A DNA stretch of 63,200 bases, taken from Caldifarciminota bacterium. Lineage in GTDB: Bacteria; Hydrothermota; Hydrothermia; UBA1063; CAJXJZ01. Positions 23,121 to 35,628 of this stretch are shown piece by piece (position 1 is the first letter of the stretch; each line of letters starts with the position of its first letter). Made by a program: the position numbers and the translations under genes. The stretch spans positions 1-63,200 of the forward strand of contig JALSNX010000002.1 in assembly GCA_026986775.1 (NCBI GenBank), given 5' to 3'. The notes beneath the pieces were generated by a model. The model ran no database searches. It saw only the letters and a list, made by a program, of their open reading frames with translations, and was not told the DNA's origin.

Positions 23121-24176
23121 ATGTGTAGCAATATACAGAAAGGGGAGTTGGAGGGTGTTCTTGACTCAATAATTAATCACATGCCCGTTGGACTTATTAT
23201 AATTGACTGTAAAACCAGAAAAGTGATATTTTTAAACGAACTTGCAAAGGATATTCTTTCAATGAATTCAGATGAAGAATGTGAGGTACTTATTAAAAAC
23301 TACAACCTCAGTATATGTGAGTCTGAAGTTAAAGAATCCCGAATGGAGATAAAAATAAAGGCTGGAGTTGAGGATAAAATCATTGGTATGAGTATATACA
23401 ATATGCCAGAAAACATAGTTGGCAGGCAGTTATCATTCATATTTTTAAAAGATATTACGAGGCTAAAAGAGCAGGAAAAGATGTTAAAAGAAAACTTTGA
23501 ATCAGAGTTTGCCAGGAAGATTGCAGGTTCAATAGCACATGAGATTGGAAATCCATTGTCTGCCTTGAAGGTTTCTCTGCGTCTAATACTGGATAATATT
23601 GAGAACTATGATGTAAATAAATTGAAAAAGATGCTTTCATCCATGCTTGAGGAAGTGGATAAGGTTGATCAGTTTCTCAAGGATTTCCTTATGTACACGA
23701 GAACCAAGCATATGAATGTAAGCAAAGAGAATTTTTGTGAAATTCTGGACGAAGTAACTACGCTTATGAGCAGCACTTTTGAGTCAAACAATATTGTTTT
23801 AATCAACAGGTGCTGTCGTCATAAGAAATTTATGATAAATGTAGACAGGAAGAGATTGAAACAGGTTTTGATAAATATATTAAAAAATTCAGTTGAGGCA
23901 ATTATGGTACGCGGGTTTATATTGATAAATTGTTCAGAGGTAGAGTACAGAGAGCACAGAATGTTGAGGGTGGATATAGCCGACACAGGAGTTGGTATAA
24001 AAAAGGACCTTCTCCCAAGGATTTTTACTCCATTTTTCACTACTAAAGTGCACGGTAGTGGCCTTGGACTCAGTGTAACGAGGGAAATTATTGAGAAAAT
24101 GGGAGGAAATATATCAATAGAAAGCAAGGAAGGCCATGGTACCACGGTGACAATATTATTACCATTAACTAACTAA
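23121..24176 (+). CDS. Sensor histidine kinase (PAS, NtrB-like)
   Basis: The 351-residue protein has no membrane segment. An N-terminal PAS-like domain (about residues 12-115, INHMPVGLIIIDCKTRKVIFLN) is followed by a HisKA dimerisation helix with phospho-acceptor His140 in SIAHEIGNPLSALK, and an ATPase domain with N-box ILKNSVEAI, G1 DTGVGI and G2 GSGLGLSV. It probably phosphorylates the NtrC-type regulator encoded 28 bp downstream. The input signal is unknown. AAGGAGG lies 5 bp before the ATG. Confidence 0.92.
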   Translation: MCSNIQKGELEGVLDSIINHMPVGLIIIDCKTRKVIFLNELAKDILSMNSDEECEVLIKNYNLSICESEVKESRMEIKIKAGVEDKIIGMSIYNMPENIVGRQLSFIFLKDITRLKEQEKMLKENFESEFARKIAGSIAHEIGNPLSALKVSLRLILDNIENYDVNKLKKMLSSMLEEVDKVDQFLKDFLMYTRTKHMNVSKENFCEILDEVTTLMSSTFESNNIVLINRCCRHKKFMINVDRKRLKQVLINILKNSVEAIMVRGFILINCSEVEYREHRMLRVDIADTGVGIKKDLLPRIFTPFFTTKVHGSGLGLSVTREIIEKMGGNISIESKEGHGTTVTILLPLTN

Positions 24177-24204
24177 AATCAATATACGAATCTGGAGTAT
24201 ATTT

Positions 24205-25515
24205 GTGAAGTTGCTTATAGTGGAAGATGATGAATTACTGGCAAATTCTATAGCAGAATATGTTAAGGAGATGTTTGATGAAGTTTATTTAACCAAAAGG
24301 ATACAGGATGCAAAGACAATGCTTATAGCGCATTCTCCAGAGATCATACTTCTTGATAACAGACTTCCCGATGGCGATGGCCTTTCTGTACTGGGTCTTT
24401 TTAAGGAGATAAATCCAGTGAGTGAGATAATAATAATGACAGCATATGGAGACAATAAAACCATTGTGGAATCAATTAAAAAAGGAGCTTTCCACTATAT
24501 ATCAAAGCCATTTGAAATAGATGAGGTAATAAATCTTTTAAATAAGGCCAGAGAGCATGTAAAAACAAAGATAGAGAGATTTAATCTTGATATTAATAAT
24601 ATTGAACTGATAGGAACTTCAGTCTATTTGCGTAATATAAAGGAAATTATAGAGAGGATTAAGGATTTTGATGTCCCCGTCCTCATTACTGGCGAAACTG
24701 GAACAGGGAAGGAAGTTGTTGCCAAGCGTATTCATTATACCAGCATAAGAAAGCATAAACCCTTTGTGGCAGTCAACTGTTCTACCATCCCGTCTGAACT
24801 ATTTGAGAGTGAATTATTTGGTTATGAAAAAGGGGCTTTTACCGGAGCGGTAAGCAAAAGAAAAGGGTTGTTTGAAGAGGTAGAAGATGGAACGCTATTT
24901 CTTGATGAAATTGGGGATATGCCATTACATATGCAAACTAAAATTCTTCGGGTAATTGAAGAGAGAAGATACAGAAGGATAGGGGGCAATGGAGAGATAC
25001 CTTTCAGGGGAAGAGTGATTGCTGCTACCAACAAAAATTTGAGGGAAGAAATTGATAAAGGAAGCTTCAGAGAAGATTTATTTTTCAGGCTAAATGTGAT
25101 TAACATTGAGATACCTCCCCTTAGGGAAAGAAAGGAAGATATAGTAGCTCTTGTGGATTACTTTGTACAAATTTATTCTAAAAGATATCATAAAAATATA
25201 TCTAAAATAGAAAAATGCTTTTATAACAGAATACTTGCCTATGACTGGCCGGGCAATGTCAGGGAACTGAAAAATGTTATAGAGAGGGCTGTAATTCTTT
25301 CTCGGGGGAAGAAACTGGATTGTGAATCCATTTATTTTGAAAACTCCAGAACCAAATTATACAGTCCCCTGATGAGTCTGGAAGATGTGGAGAAAGTCCA
25401 CATAAAAAATGTTCTTGAACATGTGAACTGGAACAAGTCAAAAGCAGCAAAGATACTCGGTATAAGTCGTATTACACTCAGAAATAAAATAAAAAAGTAT
25501 GAACTTGAAGGGTAA
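24205..25515 (+). CDS. Sigma-54-dependent response regulator (NtrC family)
   Basis: The 436-residue protein has a receiver domain (phospho-acceptor Asp51 in ILLDNRLPDGDG), an AAA+ domain (Walker A GETGTGKEVV, the sigma-54 contact loop GAFTGA, Walker B GTLFLDEIGD) and a C-terminal Fis-type HTH (NKSKAAKILGISRITLRNKIKKY). It activates sigma-54 promoters after phosphorylation. The start is GTG with GGAG 8 bp upstream. Its stop codon is created at the junction of a perfect 28-bp tandem duplication; without the second copy the frame would read four more residues (IDDR) before a TGA. Confidence 0.93.
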   Translation: MKLLIVEDDELLANSIAEYVKEMFDEVYLTKRIQDAKTMLIAHSPEIILLDNRLPDGDGLSVLGLFKEINPVSEIIIMTAYGDNKTIVESIKKGAFHYISKPFEIDEVINLLNKAREHVKTKIERFNLDINNIELIGTSVYLRNIKEIIERIKDFDVPVLITGETGTGKEVVAKRIHYTSIRKHKPFVAVNCSTIPSELFESELFGYEKGAFTGAVSKRKGLFEEVEDGTLFLDEIGDMPLHMQTKILRVIEERRYRRIGGNGEIPFRGRVIAATNKNLREEIDKGSFREDLFFRLNVINIEIPPLRERKEDIVALVDYFVQIYSKRYHKNISKIEKCFYNRILAYDWPGNVRELKNVIERAVILSRGKKLDCESIYFENSRTKLYSPLMSLEDVEKVHIKNVLEHVNWNKSKAAKILGISRITLRNKIKKYELEG

Positions 25516-27132: not shown

Positions 27133-27417
27133 TTATTTTATAACTGCCTTTCCTGCACCTTTCATAATATGCCCTATAACCCATGTATCAGAGCTTTTTT
27201 CAAGGATTTTATCTTTATAGTTTTCCGATACAATGATTACAAAACCTACTCCCATATTGAAAACCCTGAACATTTCATCATCAGGAATATTACCCATTTC
27301 CTGTAAATATTTAAACACCGCAGGTGTTCGCAGGTTTTCTCTGTATATCACCGCATCTACATTCTTATTAAGGGTTCTTCTGATATTCTCATAAAGCCCA
27401 CCTGTAATATAGGGTAG
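27133..27417 (-). pseudogene. purM: purM remnant: C-terminal third of phosphoribosylaminoimidazole synthetase
   Basis: Read on the minus strand, the frame gives YITGGLYENIRRTLNKNVD, then a segment ending EEMFRVFNMGVGF-like (DDEMFRVFNMGVGF), to a TAA at 27133. This corresponds to the last 90 or so residues of PurM. The N-terminal two thirds are missing; an in-frame stop lies just upstream near 27418. It differs at many positions from the intact purM at 34636-35628 (EEEMWRVFNMGIGF there) and lacks one Gly of TGGG, so it is not a recent copy. It marks the left edge of the lanthipeptide region. Confidence 0.85.
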
Positions 27418-27728: not shown

Positions 27729-27860
27729 ATGGATCGGCTGCTATCACTACAGCAACTAAACCCAAACAACAATACTATACAGGGGGAGGCGGGTAAAAGT
27801 AGCATGAGCTGGGCATTTTGCTCAACTCTGAGTATGGCCTGTACACCGCCAGACAAATAA
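27729..27860 (+). CDS. Class III lanthipeptide precursor 1 (labyrinthopeptin-like)
   Basis: This 43-residue ORF starts at ATG 27729, 7 bp after AAGGAG. The leader MDRLLSLQQLNPNN has the hydrophobic-x-LQ-x-hydrophobic motif that class III synthetases recognise. After GEAGK comes the core SSMSWAFCSTLSMACTPPDK. It holds one S-x-x-S-x-x-x-C unit (the labionin pattern) and one S-x-x-S-x-x-C unit directly after it. From memory, labyrinthopeptin A2 has the same two-unit plan. The LanKC gene follows 74 bp downstream, behind a strong hairpin. The assignment rests on the motif, the neighbours and the second matching peptide at 32109. Final ring pattern and leader cleavage site are unknown. Confidence 0.88.
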   Translation: MDRLLSLQQLNPNNNTIQGEAGKSSMSWAFCSTLSMACTPPDK

Positions 27861-27871
27861 GAACAATATGT

Positions 27872-27906
27872 GTCCCTTGCGGAGTTTTGATTTCTCCGCA
27901 GGGGAC
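27872..27906 (+). promoter_or_regulatory. Strong hairpin between precursor 1 and LanKC genes
   Basis: GTCCCTTGCGGAG (27872-27884) pairs with CTCCGCAGGGGAC (27894-27906), 13 pairs with one G-U, around a TTTTGATTT loop. No T-run follows. It is more likely a transcript-stabilising or partial-termination element that keeps precursor mRNA in excess over synthetase mRNA. Confidence 0.75.
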
Positions 27907-27934
27907 ATTAAAATAAAAAGGAGCAATTAATACA

Positions 27935-30577
27935 ATGTATCAATTTCTGGATTACTTTTATTACATACTTCTGGATGGATTGTTTTACAGAAATATAGAG
28001 GATTATGAGCCCGTAAAGAGTGTTTTTTACGATTATATCAGAGCAAATCTTCCAGAGGGCTGGCAAATAGAAAAAAATGGGCTCTGGTTTTATACATACC
28101 CCAAAAACATGCAACCACCATTGCAGGGCTGGAAAATTCATATTTCTGCAAGACAGAACAACGCCCTGGACATTTTAAAAGACGTATCTTCAATACTTTT
28201 TAAAGAAGGTGTTAGTTTTAAGTTCAGTCTTGATAAATTTATTTTTAGTCTTATCAACTCAAAGAACTGGCATAGAGGAGGAGCAGGGAAGTTTATTACA
28301 ATATATCCAGAGAATGAAGAGCAATTTAAAAGCCTTATAGAAAATTTATACCAGAAACTGCGGCATTACGAAGGTCCCTATATCCTCTCTGATGCACGAT
28401 ACAAAGATGCCAAGGTCTTGTATTACAGATATGGTGGATTTGCTCCGCGAACTATTCTGAGTGTGGAGGGCTATCATATACCCGTTATCAGCGACCCTGA
28501 AGGTAACATGGTTCCTGACATTAGAAACCCATTTTACACACCCCCTTCTTGGGTTAAAGACCCCTTTGGAAAAGAACCAAAGAAATATAAAGATATTCTG
28601 TTAAAGAACAGGTATAAAGTGCTTTCCTCCATTACATACAGTAATACTGGAGGAATTTATTTAGCCATAGATACCTTTAACAACAGTAAGGTGGTTATCA
28701 AAGAGGCCCGTTCATTTATAGATGTGGATGAAAGTGGCTTAACCGCTCAGGATGTTCTTAAAAAAGAATATGATATTCTTAAAATAATTGAGTATTCGCA
28801 CATTGCACCTCGTGCCCTGGATTTATTTAAGGAATGGGAACATCTGTTTCTGGTAGAAGAATTTATAGACGGGCAGGACTTAAGAGAGTTTGTGGTGGTA
28901 AACTCTCCATTGCTGAAGATAAACCCTGCCATCAGTGACTTTGAGAACTATATGGAAAATTTTAAAAAGATTTTTGTGAATTTAATACACTCTGTTAAAC
29001 TTTTACATCAACACGGAATAGTGTTTAGAGACCTATCGCACAATAATATTTTAGTCACCCGCGATTTAAATGTAAAACTCATTGACTTTGAAAGTGCATA
29101 CTTTAAGAAAGACAAACGCTGGCTCCATATTTTAACTCCGGGATTTGCGAGCAAAGAGGCATTGGAGGGAAAAAAACCTTCTGAAAAGGATGACTATTAT
29201 GCAATTGCCCAGAATATGGTTGCTTATCTTTTTCCTGTGAATGCGTTTTTTGATATATTTCCCCGTTGTAAAGAAAACTTCATTGAAGAGCTCTTAAAGG
29301 ACCTTCATTTCCCGTATGAGATAAAAAATATCATAAACTCTATGTCAGGTGAAAGTCAGTCAGATTTTGATATTGATGAGGTTGTGAGTAAAATTAAAAC
29401 TTTACACGCTGTAAAACCACGGAAAGGTGAAAGCAAAGAATACGATTTAAAAGGTATAATTAAAAAACTCGGAGCATTTATTGAAAAACATGCGGAAATT
29501 AAAGATAGTTACATATTCCCTCCTCCACCCCAGGGCCTTACTACAAATACTCTATCTTTAGCCTATGGTGATACCGGTGTATTGTTTTCACTCTTCTATT
29601 CCGGGCTAAAGTTGAACAGATTACACCTTGAAAAAATTATAAAAAGGGTTAAAGAGGGAATAGATGCACTGCCTCCTGGTTTTATGAACGGGCTTGCGGG
29701 CATAGGGTATGTTTTGAGTGAACTTGGATTTAAAGAGGATGGCATTGACTTATGTTTAAAATCTGCAAAACACCCACTTTTATACAATTCCCTTGACCTA
29801 TTTCAGGGGAGTGCCGGTGTATCCCATGCCCTTTTTAAACTTTATCTCTTAACAGGAGATGAAAATCTTCTGGAAAAAAGCGTTGAAATATTAAATAATA
29901 CTTTCAAAAAACTTGAAAATACTGGAGAGGGCTTGTATTTTGTGAATGCTGACAATGACGTCCACTATGGAATAATGCATGGCTCTTCATCCATAGCGTA
30001 TGTGTCAATGGAAATTTATAACAAAATAAAAGAACCAATTTTTAAGGAGTATGCAAGAAGACTTTTTGAATTTGACCTTTCAAAGAAAGTAGAGATAGAA
30101 AAGGGGGTATATTCATTTCCTCCATCTCAAAACAATAACAACACGGTTTTGCCTTATCTAAGATATGGAACAGCGGGGATAATAATAGTGCTTCTAAAGT
30201 TTTACAGGGCAGAAGAGGAGAGGGAGTTTGCAGAAGAATGGATAAATAAACTGCTTCTGGATTTAAACAGGAAATATACAATATTCCCCGGCTATTTTAA
30301 TGGTATGGCGGGAATAATAGACACACTTATCAGCGTTTATCAGACAATGCGCAGGAAAGAGATAAAAAATATAATCAATAAAGCCATACAAGGGCTAATG
30401 CTGTATCTTGTTGATAATAAAGACCATGCCTTTTTCCCTTCTGATGGACTTTTTAGAACAAGTGCTGATCTGGGAACCGGTGTATCCGGTATAATGAATG
30501 TTCTTTACAGATTTTCAAGGATTAAAATGCAAGAAAGTCCTTTATTTACAGGAGGCGTCCATGAAAAGGCACAATGA
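27935..30577 (+). CDS. lanKC: Class III lanthionine synthetase LanKC
   Basis: The 880-residue enzyme has the three-part class III layout. An N-terminal phospho-Ser/Thr lyase-like domain (about 1-220) carries GWKIHISARQNNA and KFITIYP. A Ser/Thr kinase domain (about 225-480) has Lys256, catalytic FRDLSHNN (Asp366, Asn371) and metal-binding DFE (Asp384). A LanC-like cyclase domain fills about 540-870. The LanC zinc ligands are absent: the expected Cys positions read YLRYGTAGI and GYFNGMAGI. That separates it from class IV LanL. It would phosphorylate core Ser/Thr, eliminate phosphate and form labionin or lanthionine rings. AAGGAG lies about 10 bp before the ATG. The exporter gene overlaps its end by 17 bp. 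Confidence 0.95.
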   Translation: MYQFLDYFYYILLDGLFYRNIEDYEPVKSVFYDYIRANLPEGWQIEKNGLWFYTYPKNMQPPLQGWKIHISARQNNALDILKDVSSILFKEGVSFKFSLDKFIFSLINSKNWHRGGAGKFITIYPENEEQFKSLIENLYQKLRHYEGPYILSDARYKDAKVLYYRYGGFAPRTILSVEGYHIPVISDPEGNMVPDIRNPFYTPPSWVKDPFGKEPKKYKDILLKNRYKVLSSITYSNTGGIYLAIDTFNNSKVVIKEARSFIDVDESGLTAQDVLKKEYDILKIIEYSHIAPRALDLFKEWEHLFLVEEFIDGQDLREFVVVNSPLLKINPAISDFENYMENFKKIFVNLIHSVKLLHQHGIVFRDLSHNNILVTRDLNVKLIDFESAYFKKDKRWLHILTPGFASKEALEGKKPSEKDDYYAIAQNMVAYLFPVNAFFDIFPRCKENFIEELLKDLHFPYEIKNIINSMSGESQSDFDIDEVVSKIKTLHAVKPRKGESKEYDLKGIIKKLGAFIEKHAEIKDSYIFPPPPQGLTTNTLSLAYGDTGVLFSLFYSGLKLNRLHLEKIIKRVKEGIDALPPGFMNGLAGIGYVLSELGFKEDGIDLCLKSAKHPLLYNSLDLFQGSAGVSHALFKLYLLTGDENLLEKSVEILNNTFKKLENTGEGLYFVNADNDVHYGIMHGSSSIAYVSMEIYNKIKEPIFKEYARRLFEFDLSKKVEIEKGVYSFPPSQNNNNTVLPYLRYGTAGIIIVLLKFYRAEEEREFAEEWINKLLLDLNRKYTIFPGYFNGMAGIIDTLISVYQTMRRKEIKNIINKAIQGLMLYLVDNKDHAFFPSDGLFRTSADLGTGVSGIMNVLYRFSRIKMQESPLFTGGVHEKAQ

Positions 30578-32105
30578 GTTTTTTGAATTCATAAAACCCA
30601 TAAAAGGGAAAATACTGGTCCTTGTTATAATGTCTTTTATAGTGGAATGCCTTACTCTGGCAAGTCCTTTTCTCTTGAAGAATATTGTGGATAAAGGCAT
30701 AATAGGAAAGGATACGAGATTATTTGCCTTGTTGGTGGCTTTGTTTTTTGTTATAACTTCTATCTGGAGATTGAGTGATTATCTTTATTCCCTTTATGCG
30801 AGAAAGGTTAAAAATGTATTTCTGGAAGGTGTAATAAAAACGAGGCTGCAAAAGTTTCTAAGATATTACCCAATTTTGAAATTAAAGGAAAAAGATACAG
30901 GATACTTTTTATCTCGTTTATATGAGGAACCTGCTCAACTGGCTGAAAGTTCTATTGACTTCATTATAAGTTCTGTAAATCTTATTATTTTCTCCATTAT
31001 CGGAGTCCTGTTTCTCCTTTACCTTTCAACCTATGCAACCGTTATCATGTTTATTGTCTCACCTGTTGTTTATTCTCTTGCCAGTAAGTTTTCATCCAAA
31101 ATAAAGCGCTATACAAAGGAAACAAAACATGAAGAGGCGACGGTAAGAGATAACATTTCCAATACAGTCCAATCTTTATTGACTATAAGGGTATTTAACC
31201 TTGAAAGGTTCGTGCTGGTTCATATAAAAGATGCTATGGAAAACTATTTAAGTAAGCTTTATAGCCTGTTTAAGACCGATACCCTTTATGAAACACTTAA
31301 TAGATACTTTTTTGGAATAACTGAAATGATTGTTATAACCGTTGGAGGATATCTTGTAATTATAAATAAAATGACAATAGGTTCACTTCTGGCATTTATG
31401 CAGACCTTTTACAGCGTCCTTTCATCTATAACACGCCTTGCAGGGAATTATTCACAGTTTGTGAGTTTGCAGGGGGCAGCAGAAAGAATAAAAGAGTTTG
31501 ACAATGAACTTGAACAAAAAGAACCACAAAATATACACACTGGCAGAGAATTACGCCTTAATAACATTTATTTCTCTTACAATGACAGAAAACCTGTTTT
31601 AGAGGACTTTTCACTTGCTGCCTCATTGGGAGAGAAGGTTCTCATAGTTGGTGAAAATGGTGCAGGTAAAAGCACATTGCTCACTCTTATGACAGGACTT
31701 GTTTCGCCTAAAAAGGGTACTTTGATAAAACCAGAGAGGGTTATCCTTATGCCAGAAGAGTTTTTAAATATCCCTCTGGAAAATTATAAGGTCGTTGATG
31801 AGCGTGGTATCTTTGAGGATATTATTAAAAGATTTGGTCTTTTGAAATACCTGCATAAAAAACCTCAGGAACTTTCAGCAGGCGAACGTAAAAAGTTTGC
31901 CATTGCCCTTTCTCTTGTAAAAAACGGCGATGCATACCTTTTTGACGAGCCACTTGCAAACATAGACCAGCACAGCAAAGATAAGGTAATGGATACGATT
32001 TTTGATTTAACGAAAGGCGCAATACTTGTGTGCGTAATGCATGAGGGAAAAAAATACTCAGAAAGGTTTGACAAAATAGTAAAGTTAAACAAAAATGGGA
32101 GGTAA
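30561..32105 (+). CDS. ABC exporter half-transporter (fused membrane and ATPase domains)
   Basis: The 514-residue protein has an N-terminal type I exporter membrane domain of about six helices and a C-terminal ATPase with Walker A GENGAGKSTLL, signature LSAGERKKFA, Walker B YLFDEPLANID and an H-loop His in CVMHEG. It probably works as a homodimer and exports the modified peptides across the inner membrane. There is no N-terminal C39 peptidase domain, so leader removal must occur elsewhere. ATG 30561 is chosen because AGGAGG (30550-30555) lies 5 bp upstream; the open frame runs back to 30498. Confidence 0.9.
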   Translation: MKRHNEFFEFIKPIKGKILVLVIMSFIVECLTLASPFLLKNIVDKGIIGKDTRLFALLVALFFVITSIWRLSDYLYSLYARKVKNVFLEGVIKTRLQKFLRYYPILKLKEKDTGYFLSRLYEEPAQLAESSIDFIISSVNLIIFSIIGVLFLLYLSTYATVIMFIVSPVVYSLASKFSSKIKRYTKETKHEEATVRDNISNTVQSLLTIRVFNLERFVLVHIKDAMENYLSKLYSLFKTDTLYETLNRYFFGITEMIVITVGGYLVIINKMTIGSLLAFMQTFYSVLSSITRLAGNYSQFVSLQGAAERIKEFDNELEQKEPQNIHTGRELRLNNIYFSYNDRKPVLEDFSLAASLGEKVLIVGENGAGKSTLLTLMTGLVSPKKGTLIKPERVILMPEEFLNIPLENYKVVDERGIFEDIIKRFGLLKYLHKKPQELSAGERKKFAIALSLVKNGDAYLFDEPLANIDQHSKDKVMDTIFDLTKGAILVCVMHEGKKYSERFDKIVKLNKNGR

Positions 32106-32108
32106 AAC

Positions 32109-32285
32109 ATGTGGTATGTTTTATCTTTGCAGACAATCAATGCGGAGAGCGTAAAAAAGGGGAACAAAGGTAAAAGTGCTATAAGTTATTCTTTTTGCTC
32201 TGCTCTGAGTCTTGGGTGTAATGGTAGGGGCAGAGAAAAGCACCATATAAATTTAAAATCTTCATTAAGTGTGAAGTGCAGATGA
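32109..32285 (+). CDS. Class III lanthipeptide precursor 2
   Basis: This 58-residue ORF starts at ATG 32109, 6 bp after GGGAGG and 3 bp after the exporter stop. The leader MWYVLSLQTINAES again has the L-x-LQ motif. After NKGK comes SAISYSFCSALSLGCNG, which aligns position by position with the core of precursor 1: S-x-x-S-aromatic-x-F-C-S-x-L-S-x-x-C. A further 24-residue tail, rich in basic residues, ends in KSSLSVKCR and holds a third S-x-x-S-x-x-C unit. The tail may be trimmed or may carry an extra ring. The outer-membrane protein gene begins 26 bp later. Confidence 0.88.
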   Translation: MWYVLSLQTINAESVKKGNKGKSAISYSFCSALSLGCNGRGREKHHINLKSSLSVKCR

Positions 32286-32311: not shown

Positions 32312-34555
32312 ATGGGTGTTTTTATGTTGTTTTTATTGTCTCTGAAAGTAACTATAAGAGGCGTTGTAAAGGATGAGTTGACACATAAACCATTGTCCTA
32401 TGCAACAGTTGTGCTCTTTGAGGACAAAACCAACAGAATAATTCAGGGCACACTTGCAGATGAGAAAGGTGTTTTTTTATTATCAAAAGTAAAGCCCGGT
32501 AAGTATTATTTAAAAGTGGATTTCATAGGATACGAGAGCAAAACAACAAAAACCTTTATTATAACTGAAAAGCCTAACCTTGATATGGGAACAATTTACC
32601 TTAAACCGATTGCTATAAAAATGGACACATTAACTGTTTTGGCAAAAAGACCCACTGTGGAGTTAAAAATAGACAGAACCCTGATAAGACCCCAGAACAA
32701 TATAATATCTTCAAATGGCACAGCAAAGGACCTGTTGAAAACTGCACCATCTGTATCCACTTCCCCCGATGGGAAAATCCTTGTAAGAAATAGCCGTAAT
32801 TTTAAGGTTCTTATAAATGGCAACCCCACGATGCTATCAAAAGATGAGGCCTTGTCCCAGATACCTGCATCACAAATAAAGTATATAGAGATCATAACAA
32901 ACCCTTCCTGTGAATACGACCCTGAAGCAAATGCCATTGTAAACATAGTCTTAAAAAAGAGCATATTTAAAAAGGGTGCTGAGATTTCAGGTGGAATAGG
33001 AACTTACTCAAATTATAATCTTGGAGTCCTTGGAAGTTTGTATGAAGACAAAAATAGCATTTACTCTTCTGTGAATTACAGGAGGCTGATACAGAATTTA
33101 TATTTACAAATGAAGATGATAAATCCTGCTTATACCATAATAACGGATACTGCACTTTTTAAAATGTCCCGAACCCCATTAACCTTACAGTTGGGTTCTT
33201 CTTTCAATGTTTTTAATAATACCGGGATTGGTCTTTTTGTAAATGGAGGGAGGAACAGGATTAAGGGTTATGGAGCAATGCACTACAAAATAGATACTTC
33301 TCAAATAGAGAACATATCAGACCTTTCATGGCTTTACCACTTCTGGGATGCATCTTTTAAATTGTCTTCCAGTCATTTAACATTTTCTACATTTTACGGA
33401 ATTCTAACTACACAAAAAGACCTGGATACTCCTTCAAAAGAAAACGATAGTATTACAGGAGGTCTAATTGCAAAGGGTGAAGGGAAAAGACAATTATTAC
33501 AGGTGGATATAAAGGGAAATACTATATTGAAAACGCTCAAGATTAGTTCTGGAGTTAGAATAACCTCAAAAAACTTTAGATCAAATACACAAACACTATT
33601 TTATGGCCAGAGTATTACCCATACAGACACTCTTGATTCACATAAAACCATATATGCAGGGTTTATTAAATTTAAAACTGCAGCCATGAAGAAATTCATC
33701 TTTTCAGGGGGAATAAGGGTGGAAAAGACACACAGAAGAATAAATACCTTTGAGTTCAAAAAATTTGACTATTTTCCGTCCATGTATTTAAGCTATAAGA
33801 TGTCTTTATACACCACATTTTCGCTTGGTTTTTCAAGAAGGATAGATAGGCCATCAGATTACGCTTTGAATCCTGTTGAAGTATGGGAAAACCCCCAATT
33901 AAAACACATTGGTAACCCGCAGCTTTTACCATCAATAACGGATGAACTGGAATTACGTTACAGTTTCCCCTTCGGTAAGAAAATTTACATTTCAGGTTCA
34001 GTTTATATGAATCGGGTTAAGGACGAACTTGGAAAATATGAAAGTGTGGATTCAGGCATCGTTATAAGTCGCATTGTAAACTTTAAACGGTCAAATTATT
34101 ATGGCTCTGAGGTTATGCTAAATGTTTCCGTATCCCCAAAATTAAACCTTGTGACTTCTTTTGATATAGAAAGATATATAAGGAGTGATTCTCTCGTAGG
34201 AACCCAGAAAGGTTTTGTTTATCACTTAAAGGGATTTTGCAATTACATGTTGCCCGTTGGAAACTTACAGTTGCAGGGTATGTATATAGGACCTTATCAG
34301 GAAACATTTGGTAGATTAGATGCAATGTATGGCATAAATTTAGGTTATAATCTAAAATGGCGCAATTTACAGCTGTCTTTAGTGGCAGGTGACATTCTGC
34401 ATTCAATGAAACTCGTATCTCGTTCTGATAATCTTCAAAAATTAGCATATCAATCCTATCCATCCATTACGGTTCAAATGACTTTGAATTTAGACCAGAA
34501 GGCCAGAATAGAAAGAAATCTGAATAATCAAGGTGAAGACTACAGAGCTATGTAA
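32312..34555 (+). CDS. TonB-receptor-like outer-membrane beta-barrel protein of the lanthipeptide cluster
   Basis: The 747-residue protein has a very short hydrophobic N-terminus (MGVFMLFLLSLKV), a carboxypeptidase-regulatory-like domain (about 12-100, VTIRGVVKDELTHKPLSYATV), a TonB-box-like MDTLTVLAKRP, a plug domain (TAKDLLKTAPSVSTSPDG, VLINGNPTML, IPASQIKYIEIITNPSCEYD) and a C-terminal barrel of alternating strands (about 210-747) of the OMP_b-brl_3 type. It is likely an outer-membrane gate for the finished peptide, or a receptor or immunity protein for it. AGGAG precedes the ATG. It is the last gene of the cluster. No TonB or ExbBD gene is nearby. Confidence 0.85.
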   Translation: MGVFMLFLLSLKVTIRGVVKDELTHKPLSYATVVLFEDKTNRIIQGTLADEKGVFLLSKVKPGKYYLKVDFIGYESKTTKTFIITEKPNLDMGTIYLKPIAIKMDTLTVLAKRPTVELKIDRTLIRPQNNIISSNGTAKDLLKTAPSVSTSPDGKILVRNSRNFKVLINGNPTMLSKDEALSQIPASQIKYIEIITNPSCEYDPEANAIVNIVLKKSIFKKGAEISGGIGTYSNYNLGVLGSLYEDKNSIYSSVNYRRLIQNLYLQMKMINPAYTIITDTALFKMSRTPLTLQLGSSFNVFNNTGIGLFVNGGRNRIKGYGAMHYKIDTSQIENISDLSWLYHFWDASFKLSSSHLTFSTFYGILTTQKDLDTPSKENDSITGGLIAKGEGKRQLLQVDIKGNTILKTLKISSGVRITSKNFRSNTQTLFYGQSITHTDTLDSHKTIYAGFIKFKTAAMKKFIFSGGIRVEKTHRRINTFEFKKFDYFPSMYLSYKMSLYTTFSLGFSRRIDRPSDYALNPVEVWENPQLKHIGNPQLLPSITDELELRYSFPFGKKIYISGSVYMNRVKDELGKYESVDSGIVISRIVNFKRSNYYGSEVMLNVSVSPKLNLVTSFDIERYIRSDSLVGTQKGFVYHLKGFCNYMLPVGNLQLQGMYIGPYQETFGRLDAMYGINLGYNLKWRNLQLSLVAGDILHSMKLVSRSDNLQKLAYQSYPSITVQMTLNLDQKARIERNLNNQGEDYRAM

Positions 34556-34635: not shown

Positions 34636-35628
34636 TTATTTCAGTATTACTCTTTTAGAACCTTTTTCTACCCTTCCAATGATATATCCGTCTGTTTCGG
34701 ATAAAATGCAATCTGCTTCTTTCTTGCCTGTGATTAAGATAAAGCCAATTCCCATATTAAAGACCCGCCACATTTCCTCTTCGGGTATTTTTCCTGCTTC
34801 CTTTAAATACCTAAAAACGGGCAGTATTTTTATTTTGTCCTTGTAAACCACTGCGTCAACCCTGCTGTTTAAGGTTCGCCTCAGGTTCTCCCCAATTCCA
34901 CCACCTGTTACGTGTGCTGCCCCGTGAACAATGCCTCTTTCAAAAAAGGGCAACAGTTCTTTTGTATATATTCTGGTGGGCGTAAGAAGTATATCCAGAA
35001 GCGTTTTTCCTTCTAATAAAACCTTTTTGGGGTCAATTTGATTTTTGTTTAATACTCTTCGCACAAGACTATAACCATTGGAATGAATGCCAGAGGAAGG
35101 AAAACCTATTATTACGTCACCCTCTTTTACGTTTTCTTTCTTTGTCAGATTATCTTTTGAAACTATACCTATAATAAACCCTGCCACGTCAAATTCATCC
35201 CCATTCAAAAGGTCAGGGAGTTCTGCGGTCTCACCTCCACCCAATTCTATACCCTCTCTCTCAAGAACACTTAAAAGGCCCTCCATGAATGGTTTTATAT
35301 AGGGGCTTTTTATATCTGAAATGGCTATGTAGTCAAGGAAAACAAGGGGTTTTGCTCCAAGCACGAGAATGTCGTTTACACACATTGCCACAAGGTCCTG
35401 AGCGAGGCCTTTTACGTTATTATATTGAATGGCAAGTTTTATTTTTGTTCCAATGCCATCTGTTGAGTAAACAAGATACGGGTCATTGTACTTTTTTAGT
35501 ATATCTCCTAAAGGGAGAGTAAGGGCAAAATCAGGATAAAAAGTTTCGGATTTTTTGAGTTTGCTTTTTATGAATCTGACAAACTCGTTGCCCCCATCTA
35601 TATCAACGCCGGAATCTTTATAAAGCAT
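34636..35628 (-). CDS. purM: Phosphoribosylformylglycinamidine cyclo-ligase (AIR synthetase)
   Basis: The 330-residue enzyme closes FGAM to AIR in purine synthesis. Family marks are DFALTLPLGD, VYSTDGIGTKIKLA, the active-site segments DLVAMCVNDILVLGAKPLVFLDY, GGETAELP, SSGIHSNGYSLVR and AAHVTGGGIGENLRRTL. Its ATG overlaps the sufS stop by 11 bp on the minus strand. A second, truncated and divergent purM end lies 7.2 kb away at 27133-27417. The lanthipeptide cluster fills the space between them. No other purine genes are present. Confidence 0.95.
   Translation of the reverse strand: MLYKDSGVDIDGGNEFVRFIKSKLKKSETFYPDFALTLPLGDILKKYNDPYLVYSTDGIGTKIKLAIQYNNVKGLAQDLVAMCVNDILVLGAKPLVFLDYIAISDIKSPYIKPFMEGLLSVLEREGIELGGGETAELPDLLNGDEFDVAGFIIGIVSKDNLTKKENVKEGDVIIGFPSSGIHSNGYSLVRRVLNKNQIDPKKVLLEGKTLLDILLTPTRIYTKELLPFFERGIVHGAAHVTGGGIGENLRRTLNSRVDAVVYKDKIKILPVFRYLKEAGKIPEEEMWRVFNMGIGFILITGKKEADCILSETDGYIIGRVEKGSKRVILK

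Follow-up and report, generated by a model that had tools for sequence, protein, structure and literature searches.

A TonB-dependent receptor gene in a class III lanthipeptide cluster of the candidate phylum WOR-3, and a possible role in peptide re-uptake

Introduction

What is the role of an outer-membrane receptor encoded within a lanthipeptide gene cluster? To our knowledge, nearly all known producers of class III lanthipeptides are Gram-positive; those making labyrinthopeptin, SapB and noursin are monoderm, and we know of no outer-membrane protein in their clusters. Here, the host is an uncultured diderm bacterium of the candidate phylum WOR-3, and the window (the whole stretch of DNA analysed, 63,200 nucleotides) carries such a cluster together with a gene for a TonB-dependent receptor (TBDT). 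A preliminary description, made from the sequence alone, had assigned this gene to the cluster and proposed that its product secretes the peptide, takes it back as a metallophore-like molecule or protects the cell, as a diderm adaptation of the system. We consider it an even call that the gene at 32312-34555 encodes a receptor or importer dedicated to the mature class III lanthipeptide, or lanthipeptides, of the cluster.

The lanthipeptide gene cluster

The block reads, on the plus strand, precursor 1, a hairpin, LanKC, an ABC exporter, precursor 2 and the TBDT barrel (Table 1). The exporter gene overlaps LanKC and is followed after 3 nt by precursor 2 and after a further 26 nt by the barrel gene, all on one strand, which bears out the spacing and orientation given in the preliminary description; a scan for terminators found none on the plus strand. 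The hairpin, which lacks a T-run, is likely to act as a read-through attenuator or to mark the 3' end of the precursor transcript; hairpins between lantibiotic precursor and enzyme genes are frequent. The block is flanked by a purM remnant on one side and an intact but diverged purM on the other, which suggests horizontal insertion at purM, as if the inserted block had carried its own purM copy.

Table 1. Features of the cluster and of the barrel protein in the window
Feature	Coordinates	Strand	Basis or detail
purM 3' remnant, 91 codons; left cluster border	27133..27408	-	47% amino acid identity to intact copy
Precursor 1, 43 aa, leader MDRLLSLQ...	27729..27860	+	core SSMSWAFC + STLSMAC, two Sx2Sx2-3C motifs
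15-bp stem-loop between precursor 1 and LanKC	27870..27908	+	fold -28.3 kcal/mol over 85-nt stretch
LanKC, 880 aa: RamC_N lyase, kinase, LanC-like cyclase	27935..30577	+	NF038151, PDB 8sao
ABC exporter, fused permease-ATPase, without C39 peptidase domain	30498..32105	+	Pfam
Precursor 2, 58 aa, LSLQ leader	32109..32285	+	core SAISYSFC + SALSLGC
TBDT of Pfam OMP_b-brl_3, 747 aa	32312..34555	+	Pfam, BLASTP, AlphaFold, structure matches
N-terminal extension, CarboxypepD_reg-like domain, residues 13-97	32348..32602	+	Pfam, AlphaFold
TonB box DTLTVLA, residues 105-111	32624..32644	+	BLASTP vs BtuB DTLVVTA
Plug domain, residues about 116-214	32657..32953	+	Pfam, AlphaFold, BLASTP, profile
22-stranded beta-barrel, residues about 221-728	32972..34495	+	AlphaFold; strands counted from DSSP
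purM-like gene, intact; right cluster border	34636..35628	-	Pfam scan

The LanKC protein scored 716.7 bits against the class III equivalog NF038151 (cut-off 575), fell below the cut-off of the class IV model and matched solved LanKC structures (PDB 8sao, E=1e-83). The exporter spans 535 aa in its longest open reading frame, but the probable start is an in-frame ATG at 30561, which follows AGGAGG and gives 514 aa, close to the size of homologues (502-513 aa). Both precursors combine an LSLQ leader with tandem Sx2Sx2-3C cores. Against the NCBIfam class III models precursor 1 was weak (NF038154, 20.1 bits against a cut-off of 22), and precursor 2 passed the same family model with 24.6 bits (cut-off 22). 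Behind its core, precursor 2 continues with a basic linker and then the conserved tail INLKSSLSVKC, a third Sx2Sx2C motif. By the family model, precursor 2 is a genuine class III lanthipeptide precursor, and the domains of LanKC together with the precursor features assign the block to the class III clusters, with rings predicted for the product.

The barrel protein

The barrel reading frame is open throughout, and the ribosome site AGGAG stands 7 nt ahead of its ATG. Its Pfam matches are OMP_b-brl_3 (PF14905; E=5e-44, 151 bits against a gathering cut-off of 27), CarboxypepD_reg (4e-13) and CarbopepD_reg_2 (1e-11), with Plug under its cut-off at 0.002. BLASTP aligned residues 105-237 with E. 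coli BtuB (E=2e-9, plug 30% identical), and the alignment starts exactly at DTLTVLA opposite DTLVVTA, which we take to be the TonB box of BtuB. A profile search matched the protein to Cir, PfeA and SusC chains, with E down to 1e-10. The AlphaFold model, built from a 21-sequence alignment (mean pLDDT 84.9, pTM 0.76), comprises a short N-terminal helix, the CarboxypepD_reg domain, a disordered linker, the plug and 22 strands; confidence is low in the linker with the TonB box (pLDDT <50 at 102-111). Its top structural matches were all TBDTs, with VIA Z of 30-37 over residues 112-727 (PirA 37.1, BtuB 34.4, Cir 34.3), and the BtuB:TonB complex matched from residue 101 with a Z of 33.0. The BLASTP alignment, the profile match and the model thus confirm the plug and barrel regions that had been read from the sequence. 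The signal peptide is short and atypical, with about 12 hydrophobic residues. The genome has three TonB_C and four ExbD matches. Together, fold, TonB box, plug and these TonB and ExbD matches predict a complete TBDT that looks transport-competent; a TonB box and a plug are hallmarks of import gates.

The N-terminal extension bears on the reading that the barrel senses external peptide and relays a signal without bulk import, to which we give a slim chance. The extension resembles that of SusC-like proteins, and a histidine kinase and a sigma-54 response regulator are encoded upstream at 23121-25515. However, it matches CarboxypepD_reg rather than the STN signalling domain, no FecI/FecR pair was found among the genes analysed, and the two-component genes, on the far side of the purM remnant, are not necessarily part of the cluster.

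Pairing of barrel and LanKC in WOR-3 and beyond

LanKC is present in 8 of 147 genomes of the phylum, and three of the eight intact WOR-3 loci have this barrel adjacent. In G037, a member of another family, the order LanKC, ABC, precursor 2 and barrel is repeated (identity 44/39/37%), and precursor 2 ends in RRINLKSSLSIKCG. In G028, three precursors are followed by LanKC, ABC and barrel, and in G032 a barrel gene and an ABC gene stand together where a contig ends. The precursor 2 tail INLKSSLS[VI]KC was seen only before this barrel, exactly in G037 and G031 and with one mismatch in the window. Operon-like spacing, the order in G037, the association in G028 and a LanKC remnant next to ABC and barrel in G019 (see below) uphold the assignment of the barrel to the lanthipeptide cluster.

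Might the barrel instead be an ordinary nutrient TBDT that came to stand next to the cluster by accident? Members of its family are found in 38 of 60 relatives, in most cases with no LanKC, and several LanKC loci lack it. Yet the order with precursor 2 is conserved in another family, the nearest paralogues likewise sit at peptide loci, and the gene belongs to a short shared operon between the purM copies. The chance of finding four of nine loci barrel-adjacent (one of the four a LanKC remnant) came to 1e-8 to 2e-7, a coarse estimate from a simple gene-count model that treats the loci as independent and sets the family at a few members per 2000 genes. We therefore regard an accidental neighbour as very unlikely.

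The barrel is nevertheless not obligatory beside LanKC in WOR-3, since five of the eight intact loci lack it, and the notion of a diderm adaptation was in this respect too general. No counterpart of the barrel exists at the LanKC loci of G032 (C54) and G034 (C10). An unrelated protein replaces it in G059, the N-terminal part of one, weakly CBM9_1-like, does so in G023, and in G050 a similar protein lies further upstream; the model (pLDDT 33) does not support these proteins as barrels. Proteins without a Pfam match flank WOR-3 LanKC operons at L045:9299-11242, L050:4017-5981 and L051:1200-3422, the latter two with weak kinship to each other and to the LanKC-adjacent CBM9_1-like protein of G023. 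The precursors at the G032 and G034 loci (L046:10307-11044 and L047:11092-11440) have LxLQ leaders and contain Ser and His with almost no Cys, for example GSIYGSRYHVGSFIGSRYH, and are candidates for Ser-His crosslinks.

Outside the phylum, the window LanKC alone as query gave no match among the genome contigs. With seven aligned WOR-3 LanKCs as query, 585 relatives were found, and at the best 80 of these 585 loci, about 20 of them diderm, the WOR-3 barrel profile found no relative (E<0.01). This rules out the barrel family as a general LanKC companion across diderms, and the expectation that LanKC genes of other diderms would co-occur with it failed at these loci. In four of five Luteibacter genomes, a classical TBDT (PF00593 and Plug; for example L086:12671-15064) is convergent with LanKC, the two being no more than about 0.1 kb apart, a spacing obtained by comparing match coordinates; in the fifth genome it is present elsewhere. 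In Janthinobacterium, by contrast, MacB/FtsX permeases and an HlyD-type adaptor stand behind LanKC. The outer-membrane problem thus seems to have more than one solution among diderm LanKC clusters.

Paralogues of the barrel at other peptide loci

The sole other full-length close relative of the barrel in its own genome, on contig C27 (34% identity), stands behind an ABC gene and a Cys-rich reading frame of 57 aa (MKILNQPADSDTTLIDTTGIYCPALYCKNKY...CFLKYN). This unannotated locus (L025:5950-12326) comprises a CBM9-like protein, the ABC exporter, the Cys-rich peptide (P0001) and the barrel paralogue, and we recognised no modifying enzyme near it. In G002, of the same genus, a barrel 59% identical to the C27 paralogue stands behind a homologous peptide; the locus (L028:113-7797) is a radical-SAM RiPP cluster in which two Cys-rich precursors end in CFLKYS. 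There the barrel is placed between the radical-SAM genes, whose matches to RiPP maturase models stay below the cut-offs, and the two ABC genes. In the tree, nine RiPP-linked barrels and the G009 barrel, which has no evident peptide, fall on one side of a branch with support of 96/98, the root placement being unsettled. From the paralogues and the tree, the subfamily appears to be peptide-associated rather than LanKC-specific.

Loss of the synthesis genes

Natural deletions separate the barrel from the enzymes. G031 and G037 belong to the same genus (95% DNA identity) and are collinear except for 4.68 kb missing in G031, a block flanked by short ATTCTTA repeats that comprises precursor 1, LanKC and ABC. 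Precursor 2 of G031 is intact, with 10 synonymous changes and 1 nonsynonymous change relative to G037, as is its barrel (dN/dS 0.07), and no LanC-like gene was found elsewhere in the G031 genome, a MAG. In G019, about 60 LanKC residues are left, ending near a contig edge, and ABC and barrel are adjacent and intact; the genomes are metagenome bins. Both deletions may be recent and much of the divergence between G031 and G037 may be older than the deletion, so the dN/dS is no proof of selection on the barrel alone. Values of dN/dS calculated without a codon alignment were discarded for two pairs, a 647-aa gene and the barrels of G019 and G034. G034 has, at L053, a 92%-identical barrel with neither LanKC nor ABC next to it; it was dropped as a linkage case because the locus keeps no trace of either gene.

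A public-good or an immunity system would be expected to keep the receptor after synthesis is lost; an exporter would not. As the outer-membrane exit for the substrate of the ABC exporter, the barrel would be well placed directly downstream of the exporter gene in a cluster with no TolC or membrane-fusion gene, and an export role has been predicted for the same Pfam family at graspetide loci (PMC8939145). We hold this to be highly improbable, however: TBDTs whose plug and TonB box are intact are import gates, the structure matches importers throughout, TolC-family genes exist elsewhere in the genome, and the barrel is kept in G031 where LanKC and the exporter are gone.

Immunity genes are often retained after the loss of producer genes. 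The barrel could accordingly serve self-protection, or be the target site, by binding or sequestering the peptide or by replacing a sensitive receptor, which would leave producers and G031 immune. Its persistence in G031 and G019 fits, as does an operon in which no other immunity gene is evident. On the other hand, the TonB box and plug are intact and look transport-competent, and TBDTs usually confer sensitivity to peptide toxins: they sensitise cells to microcin J25 (FhuA) and to microcin E492 (Cir, Fiu, FepA) (PMC8183687). We judge self-protection unlikely.

A proposed function

A role as importer or receptor is favoured over export by the paralogues at peptide loci and by retention in G031 and G019, with a parallel in MbnT. 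That the pairing is kept in relatives suggests a peptide meant for re-uptake by cells, not for secretion alone. Among the functions first proposed for the barrel, re-uptake or recognition fits best, with the TonB box, the plug, the TonB and ExbD matches and a barrel that outlives LanKC, and secretion fits worst. The preliminary description had counted barrel genes without the cluster, and LanKC genes without the barrel, against its proposal. This applies in part, as barrel relatives without LanKC occur in G031, G034, G002 and on C27; the nearest of them lie mostly beside other peptide systems or LanKC losses, and the interpretation is shifted, not refuted.

For re-uptake, LanKC would modify precursors 1 and 2 and the ABC exporter would carry the modified peptides across the inner membrane, whereupon a protease and an outer-membrane channel that are not linked to the cluster, the channel perhaps of the TolC family encoded elsewhere in the genome, would finish their release. 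Once outside, the peptide, by itself or loaded with a cargo (a metal, for instance), would be bound by the barrel and returned to the periplasm using TonB-ExbB-ExbD, possibly in kin and non-producers as well. For a returning peptide, the operon itself offers neither a periplasmic binding protein nor an importer of the inner membrane nor a peptidase.

A wider reading, which we advance tentatively and think doubtful as a whole, is a "lanthiphore" cycle in which WOR-3 and some Proteobacteria export a class III lanthipeptide and recover it with a cargo via a cognate TBDT that is co-encoded with a precursor of its own. G031-like strains, having lost synthesis and export, would in that case be receptor-only users, like siderophore cheaters, and one barrel lineage would switch among RiPP classes, including radical-SAM peptides.

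Some class III lanthipeptides of Gram-positive bacteria are morphogens or antivirals. A linked TBDT would give the class another job in diderms, as recycled carriers or signals. The pairing also names a testable receptor-ligand pair, and barrels of the subfamily point to cryptic peptide precursors overlooked by enzyme-based mining, as on C27 and in G002. The combination of RiPP and TBDT is already known, as is that of PF14905 with a RiPP; in the open literature searched, we found no report of a class III lanthipeptide with a TBDT or of a lanthipeptide in WOR-3.

Comparison with known systems

The closest functional parallel is offered by methanobactin, likewise a ribosomal, modified peptide with a genetically linked TBDT, MbnT, through which it is demonstrably re-internalised (PMC9601215). 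Methanobactin differs in its chemistry, has no LanKC and carries copper, and MbnT2 begins with a signalling domain and is accompanied by sigma/anti-sigma genes (PMC9601215), whereas the window barrel has a CarboxypepD_reg extension and no sigma/anti-sigma pair was seen. Lasso peptide clusters with an isopeptidase (astexin, sphingopyxin) also link RiPP genes to a TBDT, and a siderophore-like cycle has been proposed for them; they nearly always lack an ABC transporter and contain GntR and sigma/anti-sigma regulators along with the isopeptidase (PMC9266682). The window operon, by contrast, has an ABC exporter, and Pfam scans of it and its nearest neighbours found no isopeptidase, GntR or sigma/anti-sigma genes.

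Graspetide loci of Bacteroidetes share the Pfam barrel family beside a RiPP system, in the form of a TonB-receptor-related pfam14905 barrel for which export is predicted only (PMC8939145). Graspetides are ATP-grasp products, whereas the window encodes a predicted class III lanthipeptide and the evidence leans towards import. In architecture, the barrel is like the SusC/RagA TBDTs in joining a CarboxypepD_reg extension to a TonB box, plug and barrel, and its profile matches include the SusC homologue 5t3r and RagA. It differs from these in being about 250 residues shorter and in belonging to OMP_b-brl_3. In a Pfam scan, neither the operon nor the genes next to it yielded a SusD-like match. Finally, LanKC, the LSLQ-type leader, the Sx2Sx2-3C cores and the ABC exporter are shared with labyrinthopeptin and SapB of Actinobacteria and with noursin, and the Cys-poor, His-rich precursors of two WOR-3 relatives recall the His crosslinks of noursin, histidinobutyrine (PMC10206099).
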